Source of the DNA: Bradyrhizobium diazoefficiens
Lineage (GTDB): Bacteria > Pseudomonadota > Alphaproteobacteria > Rhizobiales > Xanthobacteraceae
NCBI RefSeq assembly: GCF_016616885.1
Contig: NZ_CP067102.1
Coordinates: 2,074,501 to 2,138,500, forward strand
DNA: 64,000 nucleotides
Direction of reading: 5' to 3'
Part shown: positions 12,326 to 30,534 of the stretch, piece after piece
How positions within the stretch are numbered: position 1 is the first letter of the stretch
Layout: every line of letters begins with the position of its first letter
The notes under the pieces: generated by a model
The model's input: the letters and a program-made list of their open reading frames with translations, nothing else
Told to the model about the DNA's origin: nothing
Database searches by the model: none
Program-made: the position numbers and the translations under genes

Positions 12326-13018
12326 CTACAGCGTCGGCTCGAACTGGCAGTGCACGAGCATCTCGGACACCGACGCGTTGTTCGGCAGCATGAGTGCGGT
12401 TTCCACCAGGCGGGCGATGTCGCCTGGCTGGCTCATCTCGTGGCGAGGGATCTCGTCGTCGTTCAGCGTCATGTCGGTGGCAACGTAGCCCGGGCAAATC
12501 ACCGTTGCACGAATGCCGGCCGCGCGTCCTTCGCGGCGAATGCCGTGGGTTAGTGCGACCACCGCGAATTTGGTCATGGCGTAGCCGACATTGCTACCCA
12601 CGCGCTTGCCGGCGAGGGAGCCCAGATTGATGACCCTGCCGTGGCCACACACGGCAAGATGAGGCAGAGTGGCCCTGACGAGGCGCAGAGGACCCTTCAC
12701 GTTAACGCGCCACATGTCGTCGAGGTCGTCCTCGCCCTCGTCGCAGACGCGAACTTTCGGGTTGATCCCCGCCGCATTGATAATGGCATCGACGCCGCCC
12801 CATCGTGCGACCGTGGCATTGACCCACGCGATCGGGCTCGCGGCATCTTCGGCGTCATAGCGATGCGTCATGAGGCGATCGCTTTCCGCAAGACGGCTCG
12901 CATCGCGAAGCCCCGCCGATACGCGGAAGCCCGACGACAGCAGCCGGTCGACGACGGCGCGTCCGATGCCGCGCGAAGCTCCCGAGACCATGACGATCCG
13001 ATTGCCGACCTCCAACAT
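12326..13018 (-). CDS. SDR family oxidoreductase
   Basis: A 230-residue classical short-chain dehydrogenase. Cofactor motif SGASRGIG at residues 14-21, NAAG near 82, catalytic serine in LGSLAG near 133 and YAMTK near 146 (Tyr and Lys of the active site), then PGYVATDM. NAD(P)-dependent oxidation or reduction of an unidentified alcohol or ketone. It is divergent from the frameshifted SDR at 13247, with 228 bases between that must hold both promoters. It could belong to the lactam-type catabolic locus to its right. Confidence 0.85.
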   Translation of the reverse strand: MLEVGNRIVMVSGASRGIGRAVVDRLLSSGFRVSAGLRDASRLAESDRLMTHRYDAEDAASPIAWVNATVARWGGVDAIINAAGINPKVRVCDEGEDDLDDMWRVNVKGPLRLVRATLPHLAVCGHGRVINLGSLAGKRVGSNVGYAMTKFAVVALTHGIRREGRAAGIRATVICPGYVATDMTLNDDEIPRHEMSQPGDIARLVETALMLPNNASVSEMLVHCQFEPTL

Positions 13019-13246: not shown

Positions 13247-14051
13247 ATGGGATTTTCGGACTATCGAACGGCGTTGGTGACGGGCGCGTCCTCGGGTATC
13301 GGGGCTGCGACGGTTCGGCGGCTCTGCGCCGAGGGACTCGAGGTTCACGCGCTGGGGCGAGACCATCGGCGATTGGCGAGGCTCTCGGCTGAGACGGGCT
13401 GTCGAGTATGCGCGCTCGATGTGAACGATCTCGCTGCCCTGACGCGGCTTGGCGGCTCGGCCGAGTTCGACGTCCTCGTCAATAGTGCCGGTCAGTCGCG
13501 GCGCAGCAATATCCTGGATTACCGCATCGGACGATGTCGACACGCTGGTCGACGTCAATCTACGCGCGGTCCTGCATCTGACGCGGCTCATCGTACCCGG
13601 TATGGCACAGCGCAACCGCGGCCACGTGATCAACATCTCGTCGATCGCCGGCCATTATGCGTTCGGCGAGAATGCAATGACATTCAATTCATCGGCGGCC
13701 TATCACGCGACCAAGTCGGGCATTCATTCGCTGTCGCAGCAAGTGCGCATCGATCTCTACGGAACCTGCATTCGCGTCACCGAAGTCTCGCCCGGGCGCG
13801 TGGCGACGAGCATCTTCCAGAACCAGAATGCCGCCGACAATCCGGATGCCCGCTTCGTCGGCGCGTTCGAGACGCTCCAGTCCGAAGACATCGCGGAAGC
13901 CATTGCTTTCGCGGTGGGGGCGCCGGCGCGGATGAACTTCGCGATGATCGAGGTCGTCCCCACGTTCCAGGTTGTCGGCGAACTGCGATTCGCCAGCCGA
14001 TCCGACACCACGCGATTGAGAGAAATGACAAGCGGAGCCGACAATGCCTGA
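13247..14051 (+). pseudogene. SDR family oxidoreductase, frameshifted
   Basis: The first frame gives MGFSDYRTALVTGASSGIGA to VNSAGQSRRSNILD; the remainder, DVDTLVDVNLRAVLHLTRLI, SSAAYHATKSGIHS (active-site YxxxK) and beyond, is in another frame. Deleting one T of the pair at 13519-13520 restores a continuous SDR of about 267 residues. The intact paralogue at 25919-26677 has the same opening MGFSDYRTALVTGASSGIGA and confirms the expected reading. The 3' end overlaps the start of the aminotransferase by 8 bases, so this was the first gene of that operon. Confidence 0.85.
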
Positions 14052-15246
14052 ACTTGCAAACCGCCTCAAGACCGTGAAGGTGTCGGCCTCGGCGGCGATG
14101 ACGGACAAGGCGCGTGAGCTCCGTGACGCAGGTGTCAAGATCGTCGGCCTGTCGTCCGGGGAGCCCGATTTTCCGACGCCGCCGCATGCGATCGAGGCCG
14201 CTCATCGGGCGGCACTTGCCGGCGATACCAAATATCCGGCGCAGCCTGGGACCGTCGCGCTAAGGACCGCGGTGCAACGCAAGTTCAAGCGCGAGAACAA
14301 TCTCGACTATGCTCTTGACGAGATCCTGATCGCCAACGGCGGCAAGCAGATCATCTTCAACGCGCTATTTGCGACCTGCAATCCCGGCGACGAGGTGGTC
14401 ATTCCGGCCCCCGGCTGGATCACCTATGCGGACATCGTTCTCCTCGCGGAGGCGACGCCGGTCGCCGTGCCCTGTCCGGAGAACAACCGGTTCAAGCTCC
14501 GCCCGGCGGACCTCAATGCGGCGATCACGCCCAGGACGAAGTGGTTGATCCTGAATTTTCCCAACAATCCGACCGGGGCGGCATGCACGCGCGAGGAGAT
14601 GCGTACGATCGCCGACGTCATGTTGAAGTACCCGGACGTGTGGATTCTCACCGACGATATCTATGAGCATCTCACCTATGATGGTTTCGAGTTCTGTACC
14701 ATCGCCGAGGTTGAGCCACGGCTGAAGAACCGCGTCGTGACCGTCAACGGCGCGTCGAAGGCCTACGCCATGACCGGCTGGCGGGTCGGCTATTGCGGAG
14801 GTCCCAGGGACCTGATCGCGGCGATGAATAACGTCCATGGCCAGGCGACCGGCGGTATCTGCACCTTGAGCCAGGCGGCGGCGGTTGCGGTCCTGGACGG
14901 TCCGCAGGATTTCCTGAAGGAGCGCACGGACATCTATCGTGATCGGCGCGATCTCGTGGTCAAGCTTCTGAATCAGATCCCCGGCATCACCTGCCACAAG
15001 CCCCAAGGGGCGTTCTACGTGTTTCCGAACATCGCCGGCTGCATCGGCAAGACCACGAAGGGTGGGCGGCGGCTGGACACCGATGCCGACTTCATCTCGG
15101 CTTTGCTGGAGGAGCAGCATGTTGCTGCGGTGCACGGTGGCGCCTATGGCATGAGCCCGTATTTCCGCATTTCCTACGCGACCGATATCGGATCGCTCAG
15201 GGAAGGCTGCCAGCGCATCGCAAGCTTCTGCGAAAGCCTGCGCTGA
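14044..15246 (+). CDS. class I/II PLP-dependent aminotransferase
   Basis: A 400-residue aspartate-aminotransferase-like enzyme. Signatures: GEPDFPTP near 38, the substrate-binding NFPNNPTGAA near 176, and the PLP lysine in NGASKAYAMTGWRVGY near 240, with a C-terminal FRISYAT arginine. It would transfer an amino group between an amino acid and 2-oxoglutarate. The overlap with the SDR ahead and the ABC importer and pxpBCA genes behind suggest it handles an amino acid released from an imported amide. Substrate cannot be told from sequence. Confidence 0.9.
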   Translation: MPELANRLKTVKVSASAAMTDKARELRDAGVKIVGLSSGEPDFPTPPHAIEAAHRAALAGDTKYPAQPGTVALRTAVQRKFKRENNLDYALDEILIANGGKQIIFNALFATCNPGDEVVIPAPGWITYADIVLLAEATPVAVPCPENNRFKLRPADLNAAITPRTKWLILNFPNNPTGAACTREEMRTIADVMLKYPDVWILTDDIYEHLTYDGFEFCTIAEVEPRLKNRVVTVNGASKAYAMTGWRVGYCGGPRDLIAAMNNVHGQATGGICTLSQAAAVAVLDGPQDFLKERTDIYRDRRDLVVKLLNQIPGITCHKPQGAFYVFPNIAGCIGKTTKGGRRLDTDADFISALLEEQHVAAVHGGAYGMSPYFRISYATDIGSLREGCQRIASFCESLR

Positions 15247-15464
15247 CCGGGTATTCGAAATGCAAGGGAGAGGGCCCCCGGACGGTCGGCGAAAGCTGTA
15301 ACCAGCGGCCTTCGCAGATCAAGATCGGAGCAATATGCCGAGGTTGTCATAATCGTTCCTGATGCCCCTAAACGAAGATGTTCTTGGTCCTGTAGAATGC
15401 CAACGCATAAGCTTTGTTCTAAAGAGGGGTAGTCTTGGTATCGCACAGTCGAGGACGGCCAGCG
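15247..15464. other. intergenic gap before the ABC transporter genes
   Basis: About 220 bases without a gene. It may hold a separate promoter for the transporter and pxp genes, since all other gaps in this operon are short. I see no clear hairpin. Confidence 0.35.
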
Positions 15465-16397
15465 ATGACCACCAGTGACGAGGCGGTGGCAGTTTTAACT
15501 GTTGAGGCGCCACCGGTCGCCCGGGAGAGATCGCGCTGGCGCTTGGCGTTGCCCGTCGGGGTTCTCGCCATACCGATGTTGGCTTTCCTGACCTATTTCT
15601 TCTTCTATCCGGCGCTCGCCCTGCTGTTCTCGAGCATCCAGACGCAGGACAGCCGCGGCATCATCGGCCGCCCGTTCACGCTGGCGCATTACGCACGCCT
15701 CGTTAATGTCGAACTCTACGCGCGCGTGCTTTGGACGACGCTGCGGATCAGCATCATCACCTCGGCGCTTGCGACGGTGCTCGCCTATCCGGTCGCCCTG
15801 GTGATGGTCAAGAGCCGTCCGATAGTCACGCGGGTCATCACCTTGATCGTGATCGCGCCCTTGATTGTCAGCGTGGTCGTTCGTGGATACGGCTGGCAGC
15901 TGGTGCTCCAGAACGGCCCGAAGGGGATGTTGAATTGGATCCTGATGACGCTGCATGTCGTCGACGCACCGATATCCGTCCTCTACACCGAAACGGCCGT
16001 CGTGATCGGATCGCTGCACGTGTTCTTCCCGATGATGGTTCTGCCGTTGGCGTCCGCGCTTGGCAAGATCGATCCCAACCTGGAGGACGCGGCTCGCATG
16101 CTCGGGGCGCCTTGGTGGAAGGTCTTTCTTCGGGTGACGCTGCCGTTGAGCATGCCTGGCTTCGTGGCGGGCTTCACCCTGGTATTTTCGCTCACCGCCG
16201 GCTCCTTCGTCATTCCTGCGATCCTGGGCGGGGCCTCGGCGGTAATGCTCGGCAATTTGATCGAGCAGCAGATCTTCGTCGTCTACGACTGGCCGTTCGG
16301 TGCTGCGATTGCCGTCGTACTCGTCGGCCTCGTTCTCGCGGTCAATGGCGTCTCGATGTGGCTTCTGGAAGGCCGGCGTCTCAGGAGGCCTGATTGA
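15465..16397 (+). CDS. ABC transporter permease, PotB-like
   Basis: A 310-residue inner-membrane permease with about six membrane segments, the first at LPVGVLAIPMLAFLTYFFFY. The EAA loop that contacts the ATPase is EDAARMLGAPWWKVFLRVTL. It resembles the first permease of spermidine/putrescine-type importers. The ATG at 15465 is chosen over the upstream in-frame codon because translation from it gives a normal N-terminus. The stop overlaps the start of the second permease. Confidence 0.9.
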   Translation: MTTSDEAVAVLTVEAPPVARERSRWRLALPVGVLAIPMLAFLTYFFFYPALALLFSSIQTQDSRGIIGRPFTLAHYARLVNVELYARVLWTTLRISIITSALATVLAYPVALVMVKSRPIVTRVITLIVIAPLIVSVVVRGYGWQLVLQNGPKGMLNWILMTLHVVDAPISVLYTETAVVIGSLHVFFPMMVLPLASALGKIDPNLEDAARMLGAPWWKVFLRVTLPLSMPGFVAGFTLVFSLTAGSFVIPAILGGASAVMLGNLIEQQIFVVYDWPFGAAIAVVLVGLVLAVNGVSMWLLEGRRLRRPD

Positions 16398-17200
16398 TGG
16401 ACGAGCGGTTTTCCGGCTTCGGTGCCTTCATCCTCTACACCATCACGGCCGGCATGATGCTGTTTATCCTGGCGCCGCTGCTCCTCGTCATGGCTGCGTC
16501 GGTCTCCGATTCCTATTTCGTGACGTTTCCGCCGCAGGGCTTCACGCTGAAATGGTATGCCAAGGTTCTCCAGGACCGCGACTTCCTTGAAGCGATGCGG
16601 CTCAGCATTTTGCTCGCGCTCGGCACGACGGTGGGCTCGCTGCTGTTCGGTGTGCCCGCGGCCTTCGCGCTGGTGCGCGGACATTTCGTCGGCCTCGCGG
16701 CAATCAAGGGTTTCCTGCTTTCGCCGCTGATATTTCCGGCCCTGATAACGGGCCTCGCGCTGCTCCAGGTCCTCAACAAGCTCGGCTCGACGGACGCACG
16801 GCTGAATCTTCTGATCGGCCATATCGTCGTGACCTCGCCCTATGTCATCCGGACAGTGGTTACCAGCCTGCAATTAGTCGACGAGAATCTGGAGGATGCC
16901 GCACGCACCCTCGGGGCCAGCCGGCTGCGAACCTTCTGGCGGGTGACGCTGCCGCAGATCGCCTCTGGCGTCGCCGCCGGCGGACTGTTTGCCTTCATGG
17001 TGTCGTTCGACAACTACCCGGTCACGATGTGGCTCGCGAACTCCGAATACTCCCCCGTGCCGCTGATCCTGATGCGGCAGCTCGTCAACGTTTTCGATCC
17101 GTCCGTGCCGGCGATGTCGACCATCATCATCCTGATGGCGATGGTCGGCGTCCTGGTTTTGGAGAAGCTGGTCGGTCTCCGCCGCGCGCTGGCCGCCTGA
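16397..17200 (+). CDS. ABC transporter permease, PotC-like
   Basis: A 267-residue permease with six hydrophobic segments and an EAA loop EDAARTLGASRLRTFWRVTL. AGGAGG lies 8 bases before the ATG, and the ATG overlaps the preceding stop by one base (TGATG). Second channel subunit of the importer encoded here. Confidence 0.9.
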   Translation: MDERFSGFGAFILYTITAGMMLFILAPLLLVMAASVSDSYFVTFPPQGFTLKWYAKVLQDRDFLEAMRLSILLALGTTVGSLLFGVPAAFALVRGHFVGLAAIKGFLLSPLIFPALITGLALLQVLNKLGSTDARLNLLIGHIVVTSPYVIRTVVTSLQLVDENLEDAARTLGASRLRTFWRVTLPQIASGVAAGGLFAFMVSFDNYPVTMWLANSEYSPVPLILMRQLVNVFDPSVPAMSTIIILMAMVGVLVLEKLVGLRRALAA

Positions 17201-17227
17201 TGTACTCTTGTAGATGGAGATAGGACC

Positions 17228-18292
17228 ATGAGACTGACGCGTAGGACTCTCATCAAGGCCGGTGCATCCGCGGTCGCTTTCCCGACCATCATCAGCCGGG
17301 CGTGGTCGCAGGACGCCAGGCAGCTGCACGTCGGCGTTTACAACTCCGCGCTGGGTAAACTGATCCAGAAGGAGGTCATTCCCAAGTTCGAAGCCGAGTT
17401 CAAATGCCGGGTCTTCACGATTGAAGGCGCGACGCTCTCCAACATCGCCGCGCTTCGTGCAACGCGCGATACGCCGCGGTTCAGCGTCATGATGATGGAT
17501 GACGTCGGCATTCCCCAGGCAAAGCAGGAGGGCCTGATCGGCAAGCTCGACGCCGACAAGATCCCCAATCTCGCGAAGGTCTATCCGCGATATATTTTCG
17601 AGGACAGATACGGCGTCGGATTCTCGATCTCCAGCGCGGCTATGTTCATCAATCCGCAGGTGACCAAGCCGCTCAAGAGCTATGAAGAGATCTTCGACGC
17701 CAAATATCGCAAGCAGATCCTCCTCAACACGCCGAAGAATACCCAGAGCGTGCTGATGCTCATCGTTGCGGCCTCGCTCGTCACGGGCAAGCCGTTCAAG
17801 GAGGCGCAATATTTGGTCGATCAAGGCTGGGACAAGCTGGCGACGCTCAAGCCGAACGTGCTGACGATCTATGACAGCGAGGCGCAGGTGCTCCAGGTCG
17901 CTCAGGGGCAGGCGACGATCGGCGGCATCGAATATTCCAAGGCAATCTATCCCCACACCGCGAAGGGCCTGCCGCTCGATATGACCTTCCCGAAGGAAGG
18001 CGCGTTTACCGGCATCAACAGCATGACGATCGTCAAGAATGCCCCGGAGCCGGAACTCGGAGCTGCCTTCATCAACCGCATCCTGGACCCGGCGGTCGCC
18101 AAGATGCTCTCCGAGCAGACGCTGAGTGCGCCCTCGGTCGGCGGCATCGACTTCAAGCCTGAGACGGCAAAATACCTCGCTTATCCCGATACGAAGGCAA
18201 CCGATCTCGGGCTCTTCACGCCGGACTGGAATTTCATCGTCCCGCGCCGCGGTCCCTGGCTGGAGAAATATAACGAGGTGTTCACGAGCTGA
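17228..18292 (+). CDS. ABC transporter periplasmic substrate-binding protein, Tat-exported
   Basis: A 354-residue PotD-like binding protein. The N-terminus MRLTRRTLIKAGASAVAFPT has the twin-arginine pattern RRTLIK followed by a hydrophobic stretch and a cleavage site near AWSQD, so export should be by Tat, already folded. The mature part has the two-lobed family 1 solute-binding pattern (VGVYNSALGKLIQKEVIPKF, GFSISSAAMFINPQV). The ligand is not evident; context suggests a small amide, lactam or amine. Confidence 0.9.
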   Translation: MRLTRRTLIKAGASAVAFPTIISRAWSQDARQLHVGVYNSALGKLIQKEVIPKFEAEFKCRVFTIEGATLSNIAALRATRDTPRFSVMMMDDVGIPQAKQEGLIGKLDADKIPNLAKVYPRYIFEDRYGVGFSISSAAMFINPQVTKPLKSYEEIFDAKYRKQILLNTPKNTQSVLMLIVAASLVTGKPFKEAQYLVDQGWDKLATLKPNVLTIYDSEAQVLQVAQGQATIGGIEYSKAIYPHTAKGLPLDMTFPKEGAFTGINSMTIVKNAPEPELGAAFINRILDPAVAKMLSEQTLSAPSVGGIDFKPETAKYLAYPDTKATDLGLFTPDWNFIVPRRGPWLEKYNEVFTS

Positions 18293-18303
18293 GCGGAGTC
18301 GTC

Positions 18304-19398
18304 ATGAAATCTTCTGAAGTCAGGCTTGAGCGCCTCAGCAAGGAATACGGCCGCATGGTCGCGGTCGACAACGTGTCGCTCGCGATCGAGCCGGGGCACA
18401 TGGTCGCTCTGCTCGGTCCGAGCGGATGCGGCAAGACGACCTGCCTCCGCATGATTGCGGGCCTGATCCGTCCGACGTCCGGCGACGTCTTCGTCAACGA
18501 CAAGAGGATGACCGGCGTGCCGGTGCATCGCCGCAACGTTGGGATGCTGTTCCAGAACTATGCCTTGTTCCCTCATTTGACTGTCGAGGAGAACATCGTA
18601 TTCGGCCTGGAGATGCGCGGGATGTCCAAGGCGGATGCCGCGAGGAAGGTGAGCGAAGCTCTCAGCCTCGTCCAGCTGTCGAACTTCGGAAAACGCTATC
18701 CGGCCCAGCTCTCCGGCGGCCAGCAACAGCGCGTCGCGCTGGGGCGTGCCCTGGTGATCGAGCCGGCAATGCTGCTGCTTGACGAGCCGCTCGGGGCGCT
18801 CGACAAGGGGCTTCGCGAGAGCATGCAGGTCGAGCTGCGCGCCCTGCAGCGCAGGCTCGGCCTGACCACCATCATGGTGACCCACGATCAGGACGAAGCG
18901 CTGACCATGGCTGACAAGATCGTGGTGATGCGCGATGGCAAGCTCGAGCAGGTCGGCTCGGCCACCGAAATTTACCAGCGTCCGGCTTCAAAATTCGTCG
19001 CGCAGTTCATCGGCGCCTCAAACCTGTTTGAAGGTCCGGTCGAGCAGCGCAATGGCAGTGGAGCGGTCATTCGCGTGTCGCCCGAATTGAGCATTCAGGT
19101 CGACCAGCTTCCAGCATCGGCGAGCGACGCGATGGTCTCGATCAGGCCCGAGGCGATCATCGTCGAGAGGGCTGGTCAGGCCTCGGCGGCGCAACCTGCG
19201 AACAGCGTGATGGCGCGTGTCGACCAGGCGATCTATCGCGGCTTCGTCAGTCACTATTACCTCAGGACGCCGAGTGGCGGGCAGATCATCGTGTTCGAGC
19301 AGAATCAGTCGCAACACGCGGGACTTCGATACGCTGTGGGCGAGGAAGTTGTCGCGCGGTGGGAGTCGCCGAGCAATCATATCATTGCCCGTCACTGA
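18304..19398 (+). CDS. ABC transporter ATP-binding protein, PotA-like
   Basis: A 364-residue ATPase. Walker A GPSGCGKTT near residue 39, Q-loop FQNYALFPHL, signature LSGGQQQR near 138, Walker B LLLLDEPLGALD and switch histidine in MVTHDQDEAL. A C-terminal TOBE-like regulatory domain follows residue 240. It energises the importer made with the two permeases and the Tat-exported binding protein. It begins 11 bases after the binding-protein gene. Confidence 0.92.
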   Translation: MKSSEVRLERLSKEYGRMVAVDNVSLAIEPGHMVALLGPSGCGKTTCLRMIAGLIRPTSGDVFVNDKRMTGVPVHRRNVGMLFQNYALFPHLTVEENIVFGLEMRGMSKADAARKVSEALSLVQLSNFGKRYPAQLSGGQQQRVALGRALVIEPAMLLLDEPLGALDKGLRESMQVELRALQRRLGLTTIMVTHDQDEALTMADKIVVMRDGKLEQVGSATEIYQRPASKFVAQFIGASNLFEGPVEQRNGSGAVIRVSPELSIQVDQLPASASDAMVSIRPEAIIVERAGQASAAQPANSVMARVDQAIYRGFVSHYYLRTPSGGQIIVFEQNQSQHAGLRYAVGEEVVARWESPSNHIIARH

Positions 19399-19535
19399 CG
19401 CGCGAGACTGGCGCAGCGGGTGCGGGCAATCGACATCCCTTATACCCGTAGACGAACATCGTCTTGGATCGACTTGGGCTGTTTGGTTAGAAATGGAGAC
19501 GGCGGCGCCGCAGGCGTTGGACCAATGAGGCCCTT

Positions 19536-20231
19536 TTGTCGATTAATCAGCCCAGCGCTCCCCTTGTCGGCGCGATCGAGAAAAGCCCGAAGATCAGCCT
19601 GATCGGCACGCTCGCGATGCTGGTCGAGGCGCCGGGTGACTTTGACCTGATTCAACAGGGACGCATCTGGGCGCTCGCGGATGCTGCGTCGTCCTGGCCG
19701 AACGTCCAGGAAGCCGTCATCGGCGTCACCAATGTGATGCTGGTCTTCGAGCAGCCGCCTGCTGATATCGGCATGCTCGCCGCTTCGATCGTCGAGCTGT
19801 GGCATCGCTTGCCCGGCCGCAAGGCCGACGGCAAGGTCATCGAAATTCCTGTGATCTATGGCGGCGAGCTCGGCTTCGACTTGCCGGCGGTCGCGGAGCA
19901 CACGGGATTGCCGCCGCGCGAGGTCATCAGAATTCATAGCGAGGGCGATTACACGGTCTGCGCCGTCGCGAGCTCGCCGGGGTTTGGTTATCTCCATGGC
20001 CTCGATCCGCGCATCCACATGCCGCGCAAATCGGTGCCCTCGCTCAACATGCGCGCGGGTTCGGTGACCATCGGCGGGATGCAGACCGGCGTCGCGGCGC
20101 TGTCGAGCCCCAATGGATGGAACGCGATCGGCTGGGCCTCTGTCGCCATGTTCGATCCGCAGCGCGAGCAACCGTCTCTCATGCTGCCGGGGGACCGTGT
20201 CAGATTCAGGATCGATCGGATCGAGCTATGA
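19536..20231 (+). CDS. pxpB: 5-oxoprolinase subunit B-like (allophanate hydrolase subunit 1 family), copy 1
   Basis: A 231-residue protein of the PxpB/KipI/AHS1 family: DFDLIQQGRIWALADA near 33, IPVIYGGELGFDL near 108, SSPGFGYLHGLDPRIHMPR near 148 and a final GDRVRFRIDRIEL. No in-frame ATG fits; a TTG at 19536 preceded by GAGG is the likely start. With PxpC it forms the half that cleaves an activated amide; PxpA is the partner in the ATP-dependent 5-oxoprolinase. The stop overlaps pxpC by ATGA. A paralogue lies at 23400-24062. Confidence 0.88.
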   Translation: MSINQPSAPLVGAIEKSPKISLIGTLAMLVEAPGDFDLIQQGRIWALADAASSWPNVQEAVIGVTNVMLVFEQPPADIGMLAASIVELWHRLPGRKADGKVIEIPVIYGGELGFDLPAVAEHTGLPPREVIRIHSEGDYTVCAVASSPGFGYLHGLDPRIHMPRKSVPSLNMRAGSVTIGGMQTGVAALSSPNGWNAIGWASVAMFDPQREQPSLMLPGDRVRFRIDRIEL

Positions 20232-21205
20232 TCGAGATCCTGGCCAGCCCCGCCTTCAACACGATCCAGGATCTCGGCCGGCATGGCGCGCGCGGCATCG
20301 GTGTGAGCACGTCCGGCGCCATGGATCCCGTCGCGCTCGCGGCCGGAAATGCACTGCTCGGCAATGAGGACGGTGCGGCCGGCCTCGAGATCCAGACATT
20401 TCCGTTCCGCCTGCGTTTCCAGGAGGACACGACATTTGCGCTCACGGGCGCCGATCACGTCTCGACGCTGGCCGGATTATCCATGCGCCCGTGGTGGTGC
20501 AAGCGGGCGAGGGCTGGCGACATTCTCGCGATCGGAACGCCGCGCCGCGGTGCGCGCGTCTACGCGACGTTCGGCGGTGGCCTCGACGTTCCGCGGGTGC
20601 TGGGTTCGCGCAGCACGCATCTGCGCGCCGGCTTCGGTGGGCTCGAGGGGCGAAGCTTGCAGACGGGCGACGTCATTCCGGTCGGCAAGCCACCGCAAGA
20701 GGCTGCCCGCCGCTTCGACTTCGGCGCCGCGCCGCCGGACGTCGCGATCCCAGGCGCCGGCCCGCGAGATGACGGCGTGCTGCGGATACGTGTCATGCGG
20801 GCCGGTGAATACGATCTGTTTTCAGAGGCGATGCAGGCGAGGTTCTGGTCCACTGCGTGGAAGGTCAGCGCCCGGAGCGACCGCGGCGGATACCGCCTCA
20901 CTGGAGACAAGCTGACATTGGACGCGCCGATCGAGATGCGCTCGCATGGCGTCGTGGCCGGCGTCGTGCAGGTGCCGCCGGCCGGCGAGCCGATCATCCA
21001 GATGAGCGACGCCAACACGGCCGGCGGCTATCCCAAGATGGCGGCCGTGATTCAGGCCGATCTCTGGCGCCTGGGCCAGGCGGCGCCAGGATCATTCATC
21101 GCCTTCAGGGATGTGAGCTACCAGGACGCGGTCGCGGCCATGGCCCCCGTCAATGACTATCTCGCCAGCTTGCGGGCTGTCGCGGATCTTTATCGACAGC
21201 TTTGA
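20228..21205 (+). CDS. pxpC: 5-oxoprolinase subunit C-like (allophanate hydrolase subunit 2 family), copy 1
   Basis: A 325-residue AHS2-family protein: TIQDLGRHGARGIGVSTSGA near 12, LGSRSTHLRAGFGGLEGR near 126, and SHGVVAGVVQVPPAGEPIIQ followed by ANTAGGYPK. Start at the ATG overlapping the pxpB stop. It is the same length as the second copy at 22426-23403. Family members combine with AHS1 to hydrolyse a carboxylated or phosphorylated amide; they occur in urea amidolyase and in 5-oxoprolinase. Confidence 0.9.
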   Translation: MIEILASPAFNTIQDLGRHGARGIGVSTSGAMDPVALAAGNALLGNEDGAAGLEIQTFPFRLRFQEDTTFALTGADHVSTLAGLSMRPWWCKRARAGDILAIGTPRRGARVYATFGGGLDVPRVLGSRSTHLRAGFGGLEGRSLQTGDVIPVGKPPQEAARRFDFGAAPPDVAIPGAGPRDDGVLRIRVMRAGEYDLFSEAMQARFWSTAWKVSARSDRGGYRLTGDKLTLDAPIEMRSHGVVAGVVQVPPAGEPIIQMSDANTAGGYPKMAAVIQADLWRLGQAAPGSFIAFRDVSYQDAVAAMAPVNDYLASLRAVADLYRQL

Positions 21206-21240
21206 GTGAACGTCAACGAGAACAAGAGCAGGGTGCGAAC

Positions 21241-22008
21241 ATGAAAGTCGGCATCAATTCGGACATGGGCGAAGGCTTCGGCAATTATCGCATCTGCGAT
21301 GACGAGGCGCTGATGGGCATCGTCTCGTCCGCCAACGTGGCGTGCGGCTTCCACGCCGGGGATCCCATGATCATGGATCGCATGGTCCGCTTGGCAAAGC
21401 AGAAGGGAGTTGAGGTCGGTGCCCATCCGGGCCTGCCCGACCTGCTCGGATTTGGCCGCCGCGTGATCCAGATGGATGCCGCCGAACTCGAGAAGCATAT
21501 GGTCTATCAGATCGGCGCCTTGCAGGCGATCGCGGCCAATGCCGGCCACCGCGTGACCCATGTCAGCTTCCACGCCGCGATGGGCAATATGGTCAACGCG
21601 GACCCCGACATGGCTGATGTCGTCGCGCGCGCGATCGCGACAATCAACCGCGATTTCATCGTGTTCTCGCAGCCCGACGCCGAGATCGTGCGCGCCGCGC
21701 GCGAGGTTGGCTTGCGCGTCTTGACGTTGTTCCTGGCCGATCGGGCCTATGACGAGAACGCCCATCTGGTTTCACGCAAGCTTCCCAATTCCGTCATCAC
21801 CTCGCAGGAAGGGGTGGCTGAGCGGGTCAAGCGGTTCCTGGACAGCGGAACGGTGAAGACCATCGAGGGCAAGTCGATCAAGATCGAGGCTCGCTCGATC
21901 CTGATCCACAGTGACACGCCTGGATCGGTCGATCTCGCCGGCACGGTTCGCCGCGTGATCGAACAGGGCGGCGGCGAAGTCACGCCTGCAACCGTACTGC
22001 TCAATTGA
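21241..22008 (+). CDS. pxpA: 5-oxoprolinase subunit A-like (LamB/YcsF family)
   Basis: A 255-residue YcsF/PxpA protein: MKVGINSDMGEGFGNYRICD at the start, ANVACGFHAGDPMIMDRMV near 36, VGAHPGLPDLLGFGRR near 60, and the C-terminal ILIHSDTPGS. The conserved Asp and His residues of the NSDMGE and HAGDP motifs line the metal/substrate site of this fold. It activates and opens a lactam ring together with PxpB/C. Only one pxpA is present for two pxpBC pairs. The 3' end overlaps the opposing BCCP-like gene by 8 bases. Confidence 0.9.
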   Translation: MKVGINSDMGEGFGNYRICDDEALMGIVSSANVACGFHAGDPMIMDRMVRLAKQKGVEVGAHPGLPDLLGFGRRVIQMDAAELEKHMVYQIGALQAIAANAGHRVTHVSFHAAMGNMVNADPDMADVVARAIATINRDFIVFSQPDAEIVRAAREVGLRVLTLFLADRAYDENAHLVSRKLPNSVITSQEGVAERVKRFLDSGTVKTIEGKSIKIEARSILIHSDTPGSVDLAGTVRRVIEQGGGEVTPATVLLN

Positions 22009-22435
22009 GCGGGTTGCCTGGCGCGCGCGGAAGGATGCGCACGATCGGAGTGCCATAGCCGACCATGGCGCCGGTTTCCGCGATCACGGCATCGACGATG
22101 CCCGCGGTGGGCGCAACGACGGGTGCATACAATAGCCCGATCTTCACCAGGCCGAGCGTCGCGCCAGCCTCGATGCGCTGGCCGGGCGCGACGAACGGCT
22201 TGTCCTGCCAGGGATGGGCGGCACGGAAATGTCCCGCGACATCGGCTTTCGCCATGACGAAATGATCGGCGGCAGGGGCGGTTGCGGCGGCACGCGATGC
22301 AGACGCTGCCGTGCGGAGCCTTGTGGCCACAACGAGCTTCAGGGTCAGTCCCGGCTCCTCGATCTCGATCGTGTCGACGCCGGAGTTTTCGAGGATCTGC
22401 GCCAGCCGCGCGATATCGGTTGTCTCTATCGGCAT
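22001..22435 (-). CDS. BCCP-like (biotin/lipoyl fold) protein lacking the biotinyl lysine
   Basis: A 144-residue protein with an N-terminal helix like AccB and a C-terminal biotinyl/lipoyl fold from residue 80 (FVAPGQRIEAGATLG to YGTPIVRIL). Aligned without gaps to the other BCCP here, RVEAG...EAMK against RIEAG...VKIGL, the biotinyl lysine is replaced by Leu101 and EAMK by KIGL. It cannot carry biotin in the normal way. It may be structural, may dock the second PxpBC, or may be decaying; the frame is intact and the fold residues are kept. It overlaps the second pxpC by 10 bases. Confidence 0.8.
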   Translation of the reverse strand: MPIETTDIARLAQILENSGVDTIEIEEPGLTLKLVVATRLRTAASASRAAATAPAADHFVMAKADVAGHFRAAHPWQDKPFVAPGQRIEAGATLGLVKIGLLYAPVVAPTAGIVDAVIAETGAMVGYGTPIVRILPRAPGNPLN

Positions 22436-23403
22436 GTTCGGGCCTCCTCGACAAGACGCATATTGGCCCGCAGCCGATCGAGATAGGCCGACATCTCGCC
22501 TTCGGCTGCAAGCGCATCGGTGTAGGCGGTCTGCTCGAACCGCAGCTTACCGCCGAGCCGCGCCTGCCCAACGCGCCACAGGTCGGCCCCGATCACGGTC
22601 GCGATCTTCGGATAGCCCCCGGATGTCTGCGCATCTCGCATCTGAATGATGGGCTGTCCGTTGGGGGGAATCTGGATGACACCCGGAACGATGCCGTGCG
22701 AGCGCTTTTCGACCGGCGCTTTCGGCTGCACCGCGGGGCCTTGCAGGCGGTAACCGTAGCGATTGCTTTGGGGCGTGATCGTCCAGCTGCTGGACCAGAA
22801 CAAGTCCTGCGCCGTGGCATCGAACGCCTCATATTCACCGGCAACGATGACCCTGACGATGGTCTCGTCCGCAGCACCGTTCGTTCGCGCCAGCGTGATG
22901 CCGGCGGGTTCGATCCCGAGCTCGCCAAAGACTGCGGTGGACGCAGCGCAGGGCAGGATGTCGCCCGCCTGCAGCGGCCGTCCGTGCAAGCCGCCGAACT
23001 CGCCGCGAAACTGTGTGCTGCGCGAGCCCATCACCATCGGTACGTCGATGCCGCCGCTGACGGCCAGATAGCTTCGTGCGCCGTGAGACATCGCCTTGAT
23101 GTTCAGAATATCTCCGGCGCGCGCGTACGAGCGCCACCACGGCGGAATGGCGCGTCCTGCGATCTCGGCCTCGACGGCGGCGCCGGTGAGCGCAAAAGCG
23201 ATGTTCCGATCGAAGCGGAGCCTGAACGGCATCATCGGGATTTCGACGGCGGCGGCATTCTCGTCATTGCCGAGCATGATGTTGCCGGCGCGCAGGGCGA
23301 CATCGTCCATCGCACCCGAGGTGCCAACCCCGAAGCGGTACTGGTCGAAGCGCCCGAGATCCTGGATGCTTGCGGGGCCTGTGACTGACAGGATCTCGAT
23401 CAC
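22426..23403 (-). CDS. pxpC: 5-oxoprolinase subunit C-like (AHS2 family), copy 2
   Basis: A 325-residue AHS2 protein paralogous to the one at 20228-21205: SIQDLGRFDQYRFGVGTSGA, MGSRSTQFRGEFGGLHGR, and SHGIVPGVIQIPPNGQPIIQ with TSGGYPK. The GTG start overlaps the TGA of pxpB copy 2 (GTGA), which fixes it. The longer upstream frame is antisense-like and was rejected. Fourth gene of the minus-strand operon with biotin carboxylase and BCCP, so it probably acts on a carboxylated amide. Confidence 0.9.
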   Translation of the reverse strand: MIEILSVTGPASIQDLGRFDQYRFGVGTSGAMDDVALRAGNIMLGNDENAAAVEIPMMPFRLRFDRNIAFALTGAAVEAEIAGRAIPPWWRSYARAGDILNIKAMSHGARSYLAVSGGIDVPMVMGSRSTQFRGEFGGLHGRPLQAGDILPCAASTAVFGELGIEPAGITLARTNGAADETIVRVIVAGEYEAFDATAQDLFWSSSWTITPQSNRYGYRLQGPAVQPKAPVEKRSHGIVPGVIQIPPNGQPIIQMRDAQTSGGYPKIATVIGADLWRVGQARLGGKLRFEQTAYTDALAAEGEMSAYLDRLRANMRLVEEARTCR

Positions 23404-24062
23404 CGGATCACCCGTTCGATCTCGAAACGGATCGTATCGCCCGGGACTAGCGCGGCTGGCGTCGGCCAGGATGGGTCGAAGAAGGTCCACCTCGTGTGTC
23501 CGATAGCATGCCAGCCGCTGGGGCCGGGCGAGGCGGAGACGCCGGTCTGCGACCCGCCGATCGATACCGAACCGCCGGCGGAGCGTTGCAATGGTGTCTG
23601 TCGTCGCGGCATAGTGATGCGCGGATCCATGCCGCCGAGGTAGCAATAGCCGGGATGGCTACCCAGTGCGAACACCGTGTAGAGCGGCGCGGCATGGATG
23701 GCCACGACATCGTCGATGGACAGGCTGCAATGATCGGCAACGGACTGGAGCTGCGATCCGATCTCGCCGCCATAGGTGACCGGCAGCCTGATCTCGCGAC
23801 CGCCAATGGCGAGGCCTTCCGCCGTCTCCCAGCCGTCGTTGAGAGCGGCGATCAGGGCGTCGAGTTGGCGAGGAGGCGTTTCGAAGGTCAGCATCAGGTT
23901 GGTGATGCCGGGAACGGCTTCGCGGATGTCAGGCCATTTCGATGCCGTGGCGGCCAGTGCCCAGATGCGTCGCTGGTGCGGCAGGTCGAACGCCCCGGGG
24001 GCCTCGAACAGGAGAGCCGATGTACCGAGCAGGCTGATCCGCGGCCGGTCGGGCACCGTCAT
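23400..24062 (-). CDS. pxpB: 5-oxoprolinase subunit B-like (AHS1 family), copy 2
   Basis: A 220-residue AHS1 protein: [20 protein letters not shown], then [30 protein letters not shown] and [13 protein letters not shown]. It overlaps the biotin carboxylase stop by four bases and the pxpC start by three. Compared with copy 1 the active-site loop is [10 protein letters not shown] in place of SSPGFGYLHG, so the pairs may differ in substrate. Confidence 0.9.
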
Positions 24063-25414
24063 TGTGCGGCCATCTTCGCATTCATCCAGTGTTCGAGATG
24101 GTGGATATCGAAGCCGCCACGGCAGAACGTCGGGTCCGAAAGGATCGCCTGGTGCAAGGGCACGTTGGTCCGGATGCCTTCGGCGCGCAGTTCGGACAAG
24201 GCGACGCGCGCGCGGGCCAGAGCCTCCTCGCGAGTGCTGCCGTGGGCGATCAGCTTGCCGATCAGGGGATCATAGTGACGCGGTACGGTGGCGCCCGCCG
24301 CGATATGGGAGTCGACGCGAATGCCGATGCCGCCGGGCACGTCCCAGCGCGTCACCGTGCCGGGCCAGGGCGTGAAGGTGGCGGGATCTTCGGCATTGAT
24401 GCGAAATTCGACGGCATGGCCGGCAGGCGCGATGTCGCCTTGCGCGATCCCGAGGTGCTCGCCGCGCGCAATGCGAATCTGTTCCTTGACGATGTCGATA
24501 CCCGTCGTCATCTCGGTGACGGGATGCTCCACCTGGACGCGCGTGTTCATCTCGATGAAGAAGAACTGCCCGTTCTCGTAGAGGAACTCGAACGTGCCGG
24601 CGCCGCGATAGCCGATCCGCCGGCAGGCTTCGACGCAGCTCGCGCCGACCTGCTCGATCAGCGTGCGATCGATGCCCGGCGCGGGAGCTTCCTCGACGAC
24701 CTTCTGGTTCCTGCGCTGGAGCGAGCAGTCGCGGTCGCCGAGCCAGAGATGGTTGTCGTGCTGATCGCACAGCACCTGAATCTCGATATGGCGCGGCTTC
24801 TCGAGGAATTTCTCGATATAGACCGCAGCGTTTCCGAAGGCCTTGCCGGCTTCCGCGCGCGTCAGCGCAAGCGCCTCGTCCAGCGCGCATTCCTTGCGCA
24901 CGATCCGCATGCCGCGGCCGCCGCCACCGCCGGCAGCCTTGATGATGACGGGATATCCGATGTCCCGCGCGATCGCGCGCACCTCCGCCGGATCATCCGG
25001 AAGGGCGCTGTCCGGCCCGGGTACGCAAGGCACACCCGCCAGTCGCATCGCGCGCTTGGCGGCAACCTTGTCGCCCATGGTCCGGATGCACTCCGCGGGA
25101 GGGCCGATGAAGGTGAGACCGGCGCGCACGACCCGATCGGCGAACTCCGCGCTTTCCGACAGAAACCCGTATCCCGGGTGGATCGCCTCGGCGCCGCTGA
25201 CTTCGGCCGCGAGCAGGATCGCCGCCACGTTGAGATAGGTGCTGTTCGCCGGAGCCGGCCCGATGCAGAGCGCCTGATCGGCGAGCGCGACATAGCGCGC
25301 GTCGCTGTCCGCTTCCGAGTGAATGACGACCGTCTTGAGACCCATGGCCCGGCAGGCGCGCTGGATACGGAGCGCGATCTCGCCGCGGTTGGCGATCAGG
25401 ACCTTGTCGAACAT
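24059..25414 (-). CDS. biotin carboxylase subunit, AccC-like
   Basis: A 451-residue biotin carboxylase: [20 protein letters not shown], the ATP-grasp glycine loop [13 protein letters not shown] near 160, the catalytic [19 protein letters not shown] near 235, [19 protein letters not shown] near 285 and the C-terminal [11 protein letters not shown]. It uses ATP and bicarbonate to carboxylate biotin on a BCCP. The placement between BCCP and pxpBC, with no carboxyltransferase gene nearby, suggests that the PxpBC-like proteins or an associated factor receive the carboxyl group, as in urea carboxylase systems. Confidence 0.93.
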
Positions 25415-25878
25415 CAGGATGAACCCGCAGGACCGATCCGGAACAGCGCTTGCCCCGCTGCGATCTCGTCACCATTCTCGGCAAGGATCGCAAGCACGAC
25501 ACCGGACGTCTCGGCGGCGATGTCGATGAAGGTCTTCATCGCTTCGATCGTGCATATCTTTTGCCCGGCCTCGACCCTCGCGCCGACCTCGACCAGCGGT
25601 GGCTCGTCCGGCGCTGCAGACCGGTAGAACACGCCGTGCATCGGCGCGGAGACGACGATATCGGCGGGAGCGCCGGGCGCTGGGCCGTCCTTATGATTGG
25701 CGGAGGGAGTTTGCGGATCGCTTCCGCCGGCAGGGCGAGCCGGGGCCGGCGGCGCTTCCGCAGACGGGCGCTTGAGGATGCGGATGCGGGTTCCGTCTTG
25801 CGTCAGATCCAGCTCCGCGATGGACGAGCGGGCAACCAGATCCACGAGTTGTTCGATCTTGGCGAAGTCCACGGTCAC
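25414..25878 (-). CDS. biotin carboxyl carrier protein, AccB-like
   Basis: A 154-residue BCCP. AccB-type N-terminal helix ([19 protein letters not shown]), an Ala/Pro linker (residues 39-72), and the biotinyl domain with the canonical TIEAMKTF motif, Lys115 being the biotinylation site. Its stop codon shares a base with the start of the biotin carboxylase gene. Carrier for the carboxylase encoded next to it. Confidence 0.92.
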
Positions 25879-25918
25879 GCTCCGCGTTGACGGCCTATCG
25901 CGCTCGGGGCGTCACGCA

Positions 25919-26677
25919 TTACTCAGCCGGCGGCCTGCTCTTCTGCGCGAAGTTGAGGCCGCCGACCACTTGTTGGGTCGGCAGGACCTCCATGAAGGCG
26001 ACATTCATGCGCGCCGGCGATCCAATCGCAAATGCGATCGAATTGGCGATGTCTTCGGGCTGGAGAGCATCATAATCGTCGAAGAAGCGGCGCTTGGCTT
26101 CAGCCAGATCGCCCAGCAGCCGTCCGAAGACTTCGGTCTCGACCCGTGCCGGCGATATCTCGGTGACGCGAACCCTGGTTCCGTAGAGATCGACGCGCAA
26201 TTGCTGCGACAGGGAGTGAATGCCGGCTTTCGTGGCGTGATACACGGTGTTGCCGCCGGCGAATGCATAGTGGCCAGCGATAGAGGAGATATTGACGACG
26301 TGGCCGCGGTCGCGACTTGCCATGCCCGGCACGACGAGGTGCGTCAGGTGCAGGACCGCGCGCAGATTAACGTCGATGAGCGTGTCGATATCCTCCGGCG
26401 TGGTATCCAGGATGTTGCCGCGCCGGGACTGGCCGGCATTGTTGACGAGGACATCGAACTCGGCCGACTTCGCCAGTGCCGCAAGCGCGTCGAGATCGCT
26501 GACGTCCACGGCGCAGGGCTGGCATCCGGTCTCCGCGGCCAAGGCGCTCAAGCGAGCGGCGTCGCGTGCCACGGCGTGAACCTGGAGCCCTTCCGCGCTC
26601 AGGCGCCGAACCGTCGCGGCCCCAATCCCAGAGGACGCGCCCGTCACCAAGGCCGTCCGATAATCCGAAAATCCCAT
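25919..26677 (-). CDS. SDR family oxidoreductase, intact paralogue
   Basis: A 252-residue classical SDR: TGASSGIG at 13-20, NNAG near 86, catalytic Ser in SSIAGHY near 136, and VYHATKAGIHS (Tyr/Lys) near 150. It opens MGFSDYRTALVTGASSGIGA, exactly like the frameshifted SDR at 13247. First gene of the minus-strand operon with BCCP, AccC, PxpB and PxpC; 40 bases separate it from the BCCP gene. It probably oxidises or reduces an intermediate of the pathway. Confidence 0.9.
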   Translation of the reverse strand: MGFSDYRTALVTGASSGIGAATVRRLSAEGLQVHAVARDAARLSALAAETGCQPCAVDVSDLDALAALAKSAEFDVLVNNAGQSRRGNILDTTPEDIDTLIDVNLRAVLHLTHLVVPGMASRDRGHVVNISSIAGHYAFAGGNTVYHATKAGIHSLSQQLRVDLYGTRVRVTEISPARVETEVFGRLLGDLAEAKRRFFDDYDALQPEDIANSIAFAIGSPARMNVAFMEVLPTQQVVGGLNFAQKSRPPAE

Positions 26678-26869
26678 CCGCGAGGGCTCCTCTGCTACCG
26701 TCCGACCCGCTGGTGGCGTCGGCTGTAACGCGAGCGGAGGACGAGTTCAGCACTAGCTATAGGCCACTCAGGTTCCCGGTGGTAAGAACAATTCCTTCTG
26801 ATCCCATAGCTTCAGCCTATTGCTGCTGTTGCTGCATTGCTTCCTGTCTGGATATCCGGAGACGCCGTA

Positions 26870-27856
26870 TTGGATACGAAACGTTTGGAGGCCTTCATCA
26901 AGGTTGTGGATCTCGGCAGCATGACGAGCGCGGCCAAGGTGCTGAATGTCGCGCAGCCGGCGCTGAGTCAGCATATCGCGAGCCTGGAGGCGGACTTCAA
27001 GTGCAAGCTGCTCGATCGCAGTGCCCGCGGGGTCAAGCCCACCGAAGCAGGACGAATCCTCTACCGCTATGCCAAGTCGATCCAGCGGCAGATCGAAGAG
27101 GCCAGGCGCACCATTCTGGACAGCAAGCCGGAATTAACCGGCAATGTCACGATCGGTCTGGCCCCGCTCAGCTCGGCGGCATTGCTCGCGACCCCGCTAC
27201 TGATGCAGGTGCGTGAACGCTATCCCGGCATCGTGCCGCACATCTACGACAGCTCCGGGGTCATGCTCAGCGAGATGATCCTGAAGGGGAGCATGGATAT
27301 CGCTGTCCTCTACGGCGAACGCCCGGTGACCGGTCTCGACTACAAGCCGCTGATGCGCGAGTACTTTTATCTTGTCGTGCCCCGCAGCATGTATCCGGAG
27401 CAGATGCCTGCAGAGGAAGTATCGGCGACGGAGGTCGCGCAATTCGACCTGCTTCTGCCATATCGGGAATCCTTCCTGCGACAAACGGTCGAGCGCGTCT
27501 GCGCCGAGGTGGGACTCCGCCCGCGCATCGTTGCCGAGATCCATTCTCAATCGACCCTATCTTCGGCGATTGCAGCCGGAGTGGGGGCGGCAGTGCTGCC
27601 CATGTCGATCGCAAAAGAATTGCCGAACGTCGACGAACTCTGCATTCGGCGGATCAATGCGCCGTCGGCCTCACAACAGATGTCGCTGTGCATTTCAGAT
27701 GGCGCTGCGTTGTCCGATGCCGCATTCGCCGTTTACAAAATATTGCTTGAGATCATCGTCAAGACCTGGGGGCCGCTCGATCTCCATCTCGGCCCGGCGA
27801 CCATCGCCACGGGGGGCTCAACGTCGCCTCTGGGCCGGTCGAAGGCTGAGCCATAA
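26870..27856 (+). CDS. LysR family transcriptional regulator
   Basis: A 328-residue LysR protein. The helix-turn-helix is FIKVVDLGSMTSAAKVLNVA followed by QPALSQHIASLE (residues 7-38), then a co-inducer domain with VTIGLAPLSSAALLATPLLM. No ATG fits the family start, so TTG at 26870 (LDTKRLEAF) is chosen. It is divergent from the SDR-BCCP-AccC-pxp operon, with 192 bases between, the classic arrangement for a regulator of the neighbouring operon. It could also control the CHA-aldolase gene downstream. Confidence 0.88.
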   Translation: MDTKRLEAFIKVVDLGSMTSAAKVLNVAQPALSQHIASLEADFKCKLLDRSARGVKPTEAGRILYRYAKSIQRQIEEARRTILDSKPELTGNVTIGLAPLSSAALLATPLLMQVRERYPGIVPHIYDSSGVMLSEMILKGSMDIAVLYGERPVTGLDYKPLMREYFYLVVPRSMYPEQMPAEEVSATEVAQFDLLLPYRESFLRQTVERVCAEVGLRPRIVAEIHSQSTLSSAIAAGVGAAVLPMSIAKELPNVDELCIRRINAPSASQQMSLCISDGAALSDAAFAVYKILLEIIVKTWGPLDLHLGPATIATGGSTSPLGRSKAEP

Positions 27857-30524: not shown

Positions 30525-30534
30525 GCGAAAGGTC

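Follow-up and report, generated by a model that had tools for sequence, protein, structure and literature searches.

Two operons meet tail to tail in the genome of Bradyrhizobium diazoefficiens, and the question they raise is whether they work as one system and, if so, by which chemistry. They lie in a window of 64,000 nucleotides (the whole stretch of DNA analysed here, positions 2,074,501 to 2,138,500 of NZ_CP067102.1), which falls within a single contig of 8.09 Mb. The plus-strand operon runs from a short-chain dehydrogenase gene (SDR1) through an aminotransferase and a four-gene ATP-binding cassette (ABC) importer to pxpB1, pxpC1 and pxpA, and the minus-strand operon contains SDR2, a biotin carboxyl carrier protein (BCCP), the biotin carboxylase AccC, pxpB2, pxpC2 and a BCCP-like protein. 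In our judgement the balance tips slightly towards both operons forming one catabolic system, in which an amide or lactam would undergo biotin-dependent carboxylation and its ring would be opened by PxpA. The gene content and the overlap of the two operons had been described in an initial annotation of the same DNA, and both were borne out by open reading frame (ORF) and Pfam scans, which place every gene named earlier (18 genes were scanned at the locus) and give an overlap of exactly 8 bases (22001-22008) between the BCCP-like gene and pxpA, of which no other copy was found in the locus.

We read the two operons as one system because of their linkage within the genus and because of relatives elsewhere that form single clusters. 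In a search of 265 genomes of the genus, pxpC1 (at least 73% identity) was found in 29, the genome studied here included, and in all 29 a second pxpC, 49-54% identical to pxpC1, is encoded on the opposite strand at a distance of about 2.2 kb; pxpC1 alone was found in none of the 265. Two facing pxpC genes at this distance thus recur in 29 of 265 genomes, and the arrangement is not due to chance. The initial annotation had proposed a joint system and had named independent occurrence of the operons in most genomes as evidence against it; such independence was not seen, and the proposal of a joint system is supported for the most part. Conversely, all 19 loci with at least 69% identity to pxpC2, among the 76 loci described below, also carry the second pair. 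It should be noted that the counts were read off a table and that many of the 29 genomes are probably of the same species as those in the 76-locus set.

This set came from a profile scan of named genomes and holds the best 76 of at least 563 relatives; 57 of the loci span at least 20 kb, and 18 of these are close double loci of Bradyrhizobium or Chelatococcus. pxpA and an SDR occur in all 57 long loci, LysR in 56, AccC in 55 (it is absent from L080 and L088), BCCP, BCCP-like and aminotransferase in 54 each, and RraA in 49. For the control, 29 pxpC loci were taken, with flanks of about 1.5 kb, from further genomes within the family; AccC was found in only four of them (L007, L011, L030 and L033), and L007 is the present module. 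The usual form elsewhere is one cluster with BCCP, AccC, pxpB, pxpC, BCCP-like, pxpA and SDR each present once, and genes for LysR, an aminotransferase, RraA and an importer in the neighbourhood. Single modules usually have both the biotin carboxylase missing from our plus operon and the pxpA missing from our minus operon, and in most of them pxpA lies downstream of accC on the same strand. Concerning the importer, a PotABCD-like type (at least three genes) was found in 20 of the 76 loci and an amino-acid type in 46, some loci being too short for the comparison. Neorhizobium L041 and Bosea OK403 L117 have the same importer type as the window, an SDR, an aminotransferase, the biotin set (biotin carboxylase, BCCP and BCCP-like) and one pxpBC pair. 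These two loci offer simple systems for experiments.

Double pxpBC was found in 21 loci: the window, Bradyrhizobium sp. 62B, 18 other Bradyrhizobium and one Chelatococcus (L061), which has both pairs in another arrangement. The overlap is exactly 8 bases in 17 of the 21, and the value of 29 in L048 is an artefact of a tblastn match extended beyond the stop. Among plasmids, 742 records were matched by tblastn, and nine regions of these were inspected. The whole locus was found in the plasmid of Bradyrhizobium sp. 62B (83% identity for pxpC2), single-pxpBC forms with the biotin set in six annotated plasmids (Burkholderia, another Bradyrhizobium, Microvirga, Neorhizobium, Sinorhizobium and Agrobacterium), and the single form also, by tblastn, in an unannotated Variovorax plasmid record.

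Trees were built by a quick method, with support from the Shimodaira-Hasegawa-like approximate likelihood ratio test, and were summarised with midpoint rooting. The genome has a second pxpABC at about 4.396 Mb, apart from the locus (three pxpB and two pxpA in total), and the pxpB, pxpC and pxpA of the module separate from it with support of 90, 99 and 99. Bosea OK403, Neorhizobium, S. numidicum, A. vitis and a Rhodobacterales metagenome-assembled genome (MAG) share their groups with the plus-strand pxpB1, pxpC1 and pxpA (support 98, 92 and 99); the pxpB1 group also includes Bosea F3-2 (L044), and L044 and L008, neither of which showed an AccC, lie close to or within module groups. For pxpC2 the group has 35 rows, Burkholderiales and others among them, with support of 90 (23 in the midpoint-rooted summary, where it has 33 rows), and the pxpB2 group has support of 83 when it comprises 19 rows and of 58 when it comprises 33. 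Both SDRs and the aminotransferase sort with the subtype-1 relatives (support 100 each, with Microvirga L039 in the aminotransferase group), and AccC and BCCP are nearest to Bosea (93 and 51). By these trees the two pxpBC pairs are assigned to different subtypes, pxpA going with the plus-strand pair.

The near mirror symmetry that the initial annotation had seen in the locus is consequently superficial. DNA identity is 70.6% between SDR1 and SDR2, 58.5% between pxpB1 and pxpB2 and 59.9% between pxpC1 and pxpC2, and a single inverted duplication is ruled out because the pxpBC pairs are of different subtypes; SDR1 and SDR2 alone look like younger copies of each other. Ratios of nonsynonymous to synonymous substitution (dN/dS) between the window and L047 and L036 are 0.11 for pxpB1, 0.19-0.25 for pxpC1, 0.07-0.08 for pxpB2 and 0.18-0.20 for pxpC2; against the very close L045 they are higher, 0.16-0.38 for the four genes, at low dS. 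Both pairs look to be under purifying selection, and all four genes seem to be maintained.

As to the chemistry, pxpA belongs to the PxpA LamB/YcsF family (NF003814, 331 bits, cut-off 226) and pxpB1 passes TIGR00370 (183.9 bits, cut-off 145.55); pxpB2 was scanned against Pfam only. The PxpC equivalog NF045499 (cut-off 500) was failed by pxpC1 (278 bits) and pxpC2 (304 bits), which says little, since this cut-off is narrow and the separate pxpC of the genome (217 bits) fails it too. AccC scores 650.8 bits on TIGR00514 (cut-off 626.5). Among the 18 locus genes scanned there is neither an AccA or AccD family member, the carboxyltransferase partners being of the PxpB/PxpC type, nor an allophanate hydrolase amidase. 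The best place in this genome for urea carboxylase TIGR02712 (cut-off 1303.85) reaches 549.5 bits, and none is above the cut-off. By these profiles the AHS-domain genes with the biotin carboxylase do not qualify as a urea carboxylase or urea amidolyase, and the earlier mention of urea amidolyase for this combination needs correction on that point.

Urea carboxylase is nevertheless informative, as its carboxyltransferase, which shares the fold of PxpC/PxpB (3va7, 5i8i), passes the carboxyl group of biotin on to a nitrogen of urea. The locus resembles the K. lactis urea carboxylase/urea amidolyase in having a biotin carboxylase, a biotin carrier and this fold, but it uses separate genes rather than one chain, and pxpA and the BCCP-like protein are extra. 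The title of PDB entry 9yx5 describes an M. smegmatis long chain acyl-CoA carboxylase complex with MSMEG_0435-0436 bound; its chains V and W are of the PxpC and PxpB type and the AccA3 subunit is also present, so that, as far as title and chain names tell, PxpC/PxpB-type proteins stand there with a biotin carboxylase-BCCP subunit; no paper on the entry was found among the listings searched. Compared with the PxpABC 5-oxoprolinases (YbgJKL of E. coli, that of B. subtilis, pxpTABC of C. glutamicum), the locus adds biotin carboxylase, BCCP and BCCP-like, and also has two pxpBC subtypes, SDR, aminotransferase and aldolase. Instead of the NRAMP-related PxpT that C. glutamicum has according to the part consulted of PMC13274462, it has an ABC importer. 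CapAB caprolactamase and the hydantoinase/oxoprolinase family, in the sections used of PMC8453981, open lactam rings with ATP, as proposed here; the paper considers routes through carboxyphosphate or carboxylation to account for bicarbonate dependence, and by its account these enzymes have no sequence similarity to PxpABC. Section 8 of a 2011 review (PMC3199775) presents split carboxyltransferase genes as unstudied at that time. For the combined module no description was found in the open-licence literature searched, most matches being judged from listings. PA0492-0496 of P. aeruginosa, which we take to be a similar cluster, is named in three of the papers listed.

Residues were compared in PxpB and in the carriers. 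Lys1605 of urea carboxylase is most likely the general base, according to the part of PMC5770610 consulted. Its column was located by counting along the 5i8i alignment, with a placement uncertain by one or two residues, in 125 aligned pxpB rows (21 and 21 from double loci, 5 and 58 from single ones, 20 from other loci). A lysine stands at +1 of this column in 21 of 21 pxpB1 and in the five other subtype-1 rows, and at +2 in 53 of the 58 single subtype-2 rows, the other five being without it. Concerning the carriers, two BCCPs had been claimed initially: one is a true BCCP, and the second has the biotinyl-domain fold without the acceptor lysine, which was found in the EAMK column or next to it in 0 of 80 BCCP-like rows (those of L048, L067 and L077, cut at a stop, are kept among the 80) and in 78 of 78 true BCCP rows.

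The urea carboxylase fold, the lysine pattern of PxpB and 9yx5 make biotin-dependent carboxylation followed by hydrolysis through PxpA the best reading. The sequence of import, N-carboxylation, ring opening and transamination proposed initially fits the gene families. The compound taken up by the ABC importer would be small and contain nitrogen, a lactam or cyclic amide being most likely. AccC would carboxylate biotin on the single true BCCP, a PxpB-PxpC carboxyltransferase would place this carboxyl group on the nitrogen of the amide, and the activated ring would be hydrolysed by PxpA. The amino acid thus formed would be processed by the aminotransferase, by the SDRs and by the RraA-like aldolase/decarboxylase. 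The BCCP-like protein, unable to carry biotin, may serve as a permanent subunit for structure or docking. The double form would have arisen when a subtype-1 set (pxpB1, pxpC1, pxpA, aminotransferase and importer) joined a subtype-2 pxpBC pair, and the single set of biotin carboxylase, BCCP and BCCP-like beside the joined pairs may now serve both, since the plus operon holds the only pxpA of the locus and the minus operon its only biotin carboxylase. The data show the gene content, its conservation and linkage, the subtypes and the absence of the biotin lysine; how the proteins assemble, that nitrogen is carboxylated, in which order the steps run, how the double form evolved and what the substrate is are all points that we infer.

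Several observations weigh against this reading. The Lys1605 column itself is Arg in all 125 pxpB rows, and pxpB2 of the double loci has no lysine at positions 0 to +2 in 21 of 21, a loss that hints at a changed role of the second pair. PxpABC of the E. coli type functions without a biotin carboxylase. Our loci were picked by pxpC similarity, which favours full modules. AccC and BCCP are present and no BCCP-like was detected in L092, and AccC and BCCP-like are present and no BCCP was detected in L072. Three MAG loci of one lineage (L080, L088 and L089, the last of 13 kb) keep pxpBCA, SDR, RraA and LysR and lack AccC, BCCP and BCCP-like; a Gallionella BCCP-like query against these three genomes of uncertain completeness gave no match in two and a poor partial one in the third. 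The three biotin-related genes can thus go together, which also counts in favour of our reading, and in such loci the step may run another way. On the Bosea F3-2 plasmid (L044), pxpA, pxpB and pxpC were found, and AccC, BCCP, BCCP-like and SDR were undetected in 21 kb; a further, more distant pxpB-type gene lies nearby. With the three MAG loci it shows that related pxpABC genes can be without a local biotin carboxylase. Regulation gives no help either. The repeat ATA-N9-TAT, presumably a Nac-type site, precedes SDR2 in all 20 double loci tested and SDR1 in only 1 of 19, so that control of both operons by the LysR-type regulator is not supported and no shared operator has been established. When the two promoters of the window are compared without gaps, their best match over 16 bases is no better than in shuffles. 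A looser pattern, AGAR-N7-YTCT, present in both promoters (13088 and 26785), occurs six times in the window for 2.33 expected, a number that 4 of 100 shuffles also reach, and was not kept as a shared operator.

Could the operons be two separate systems, the plus one a full ATP-dependent enzyme of the oxoprolinase type with importer and aminotransferase, and the minus one an independent biotin-dependent carboxylase? We think this improbable, although it is the most credible of the rivals. The plus operon does have the pxpA, pxpB and pxpC that, with a transporter, are needed for growth of C. glutamicum on 5-oxoproline in the part consulted of PMC13274462, the shared operator was not found, and in Chelatococcus L061 the halves are not tail to tail, pxpA and BCCP-like being about 8.8 kb apart. 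However, pxpC1 never parts from the second pxpC in the 29 genomes, subtype-1 pxpBCA has its own biotin carboxylase, BCCP and BCCP-like in Bosea OK403, Neorhizobium, S. numidicum, A. vitis and the Rhodobacterales MAG (L105), with L044, on a long branch, as an exception, and pxpA follows accC on the same strand in most single modules. An ordinary 5-oxoproline locus, with biotin carboxylase and BCCP as accessories or serving acetyl-CoA carboxylase and the extra pxpBC redundant, has the least credit with us. NCBIfam does call pxpA and pxpB1 5-oxoprolinase subunits above cut-off, and L080, L088, L089 and L044 are biotin-free relatives, but the two pairs go together in 29 of 29 genomes, both are apparently under purifying selection, the biotin genes are nearly constant in the long loci, and a separate pxpABC is already in the genome, a point that also tells against our own reading.

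Between these two in probability, and still unlikely, comes carboxylation without ring opening, comparable to the formation of allophanate by urea carboxylase. Here the substrate would be a linear amide, ureide or guanidine, and PxpA would split a linear N-carboxy or carbamoyl compound; the amidase of allophanate hydrolase is not among the genes scanned, and the PxpABC enzymes described in the parts of the literature consulted open 5-oxoproline. To the same low degree we credit a bolder form of the one-system reading, a biotin-dependent lactam carboxylase-hydrolase built as one machine of active and degenerate halves, with catalytic pxpB1C1 beside a pxpB2C2 that is non-catalytic and deprived of its motif lysine, and biotinylated BCCP beside a BCCP-like twin deprived of its biotin lysine; if true, it would be a class of amide-opening enzyme as yet undescribed.

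The substrate of the single system that we prefer can be approached only through its families. The binding protein is distantly PotD-like (phmmer E 2e-13; NCBIfam PotD 51.6 against a cut-off of 582). The best NCBIfam model for SDR2 is YdfG, at 157.4 bits far under the cut-off of 411, and its best PDB relative is 3asu, which we take to be E. coli YdfG. The aminotransferase is closest in the PDB to aspartate aminotransferase A (6f77), and with 517 bits it stays below the 617 that the NCBIfam model of aspartate transaminase requires. The RraA-like protein scores 219.8 bits on NF006731, 4-carboxy-4-hydroxy-2-oxoadipate aldolase/oxaloacetate decarboxylase, above the cut-off of 179. It is a guess that a 4-substituted 5-oxoproline or similar cyclic amide fits SDR, aminotransferase and RraA-like; sugar-acid neighbour genes suggested sugar-derived lactams as candidates. 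The plasmids with the closest relatives are from nodules or roots of peanut. Peanut transports 4-methyleneglutamine. A link to peanut was set aside as a guess only, the double locus being found in many Bradyrhizobium with no host given in the record title and the literature search giving nothing relevant.

One gene of the plus operon is damaged. SDR1 belongs to the SDR family, as first annotated, and is split over two frames in this genome, with the break near 13520. Its frame is intact in all 19 tail-to-tail relatives and in all four near genomes fetched (G178, G180, G177 and G257, the last apparently the same contig as L045). Among the genomes examined only this one has the frame break, which would be either a recent loss or a sequencing error.

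Features of the locus in window coordinates, with the families or other data on which each assignment is based
Feature	Position	Strand	Basis
SDR3, short-chain dehydrogenase, divergent from plus operon	12326..13018	-	Pfam adh_short
SDR1, frame-broken in this genome	13247..14051	+	frames 13247-14077 and 13449-14051
Pyridoxal phosphate aminotransferase, aspartate-aminotransferase-like	14044..15246	+	PF00155
ABC importer permease, PotB-like	15435..16397	+	PF00528
ABC importer permease, PotC-like	16394..17200	+	PF00528
Periplasmic solute-binding protein, PotD-like	17228..18292	+	PF13416
ABC importer ATPase, PotA-like	18304..19398	+	PF00005 and TOBE_2
pxpB1, carboxyltransferase subdomains C/D, subtype 1	19536..20231	+	PF02682, TIGR00370
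pxpC1, carboxyltransferase subdomains A/B, subtype 1	20228..21205	+	PF02626, tree
pxpA, LamB/YcsF family, subtype 1	21241..22008	+	PF03746 (E 7e-89), NF003814, tree
BCCP-like, without biotin lysine, overlaps pxpA	22001..22435	-	
pxpC2, carboxyltransferase subdomains A/B, subtype 2	22426..23436	-	
pxpB2, carboxyltransferase subdomains C/D, subtype 2	23400..24062	-	PF02682
Biotin carboxylase, AccC family	24059..25414	-	PF00289, PF02786, PF02785, TIGR00514
True BCCP with EAMK biotin motif	25414..25878	-	PF00364 (E 7e-19)
SDR2, YdfG-like short-chain dehydrogenase	25919..26677	-	PF00106
ATA-N9-TAT inverted repeat, candidate regulator site, between LysR and SDR2	26806..26820	-	
LysR-type regulator, divergent from minus operon	26837..27856	+	PF00126, PF03466
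RraA-like aldolase/decarboxylase	27953..28624	+	PF03737, NF006731

Comparison with relatives places the start of pxpC2 probably near 23403. The neighbours SDR3, LysR and RraA-like probably belong to the system too; SDR3 is 88-98% identical in most double loci and 63% in Neorhizobium L041. Rieske oxygenase and reductase genes (29451-31548) follow RraA, and a lyase-family gene is found there in Bradyrhizobium L036, L047 and L049. A large serine recombinase with Resolvase and Recombinase domains (6645-8300) lies a few kb upstream of the locus. Near the double locus of 62B (L036, 1853-8410) stand hydantoinase/oxoprolinase-type genes with a coenzyme A (CoA)-transferase and an enoyl-CoA hydratase, and such CoA-transferase and hydratase genes recur in L056. 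Beside single modules such as L064, L073, L091 and L106, genes for L-idonate dehydrogenase, gluconokinase and 2-hydroxyacid dehydrogenase recur, and sometimes phosphoenolpyruvate carboxylase or transhydrogenase genes.

What would be new here is chemistry of the PxpABC and urea-carboxylase type together with a dedicated biotin set and a non-biotinylatable carrier-like protein, in genes that databases label as parts of acetyl-CoA carboxylase and 5-oxoprolinase. Their regular company suggests a biotin-dependent route to the opening of amide rings. If this is true, a reaction type would be added to the biotin enzymes, and a tool for lactam breakdown and a handle on amide activation by PxpABC-type enzymes would be gained; a cluster that recurs in soil and root bacteria would also be explained.

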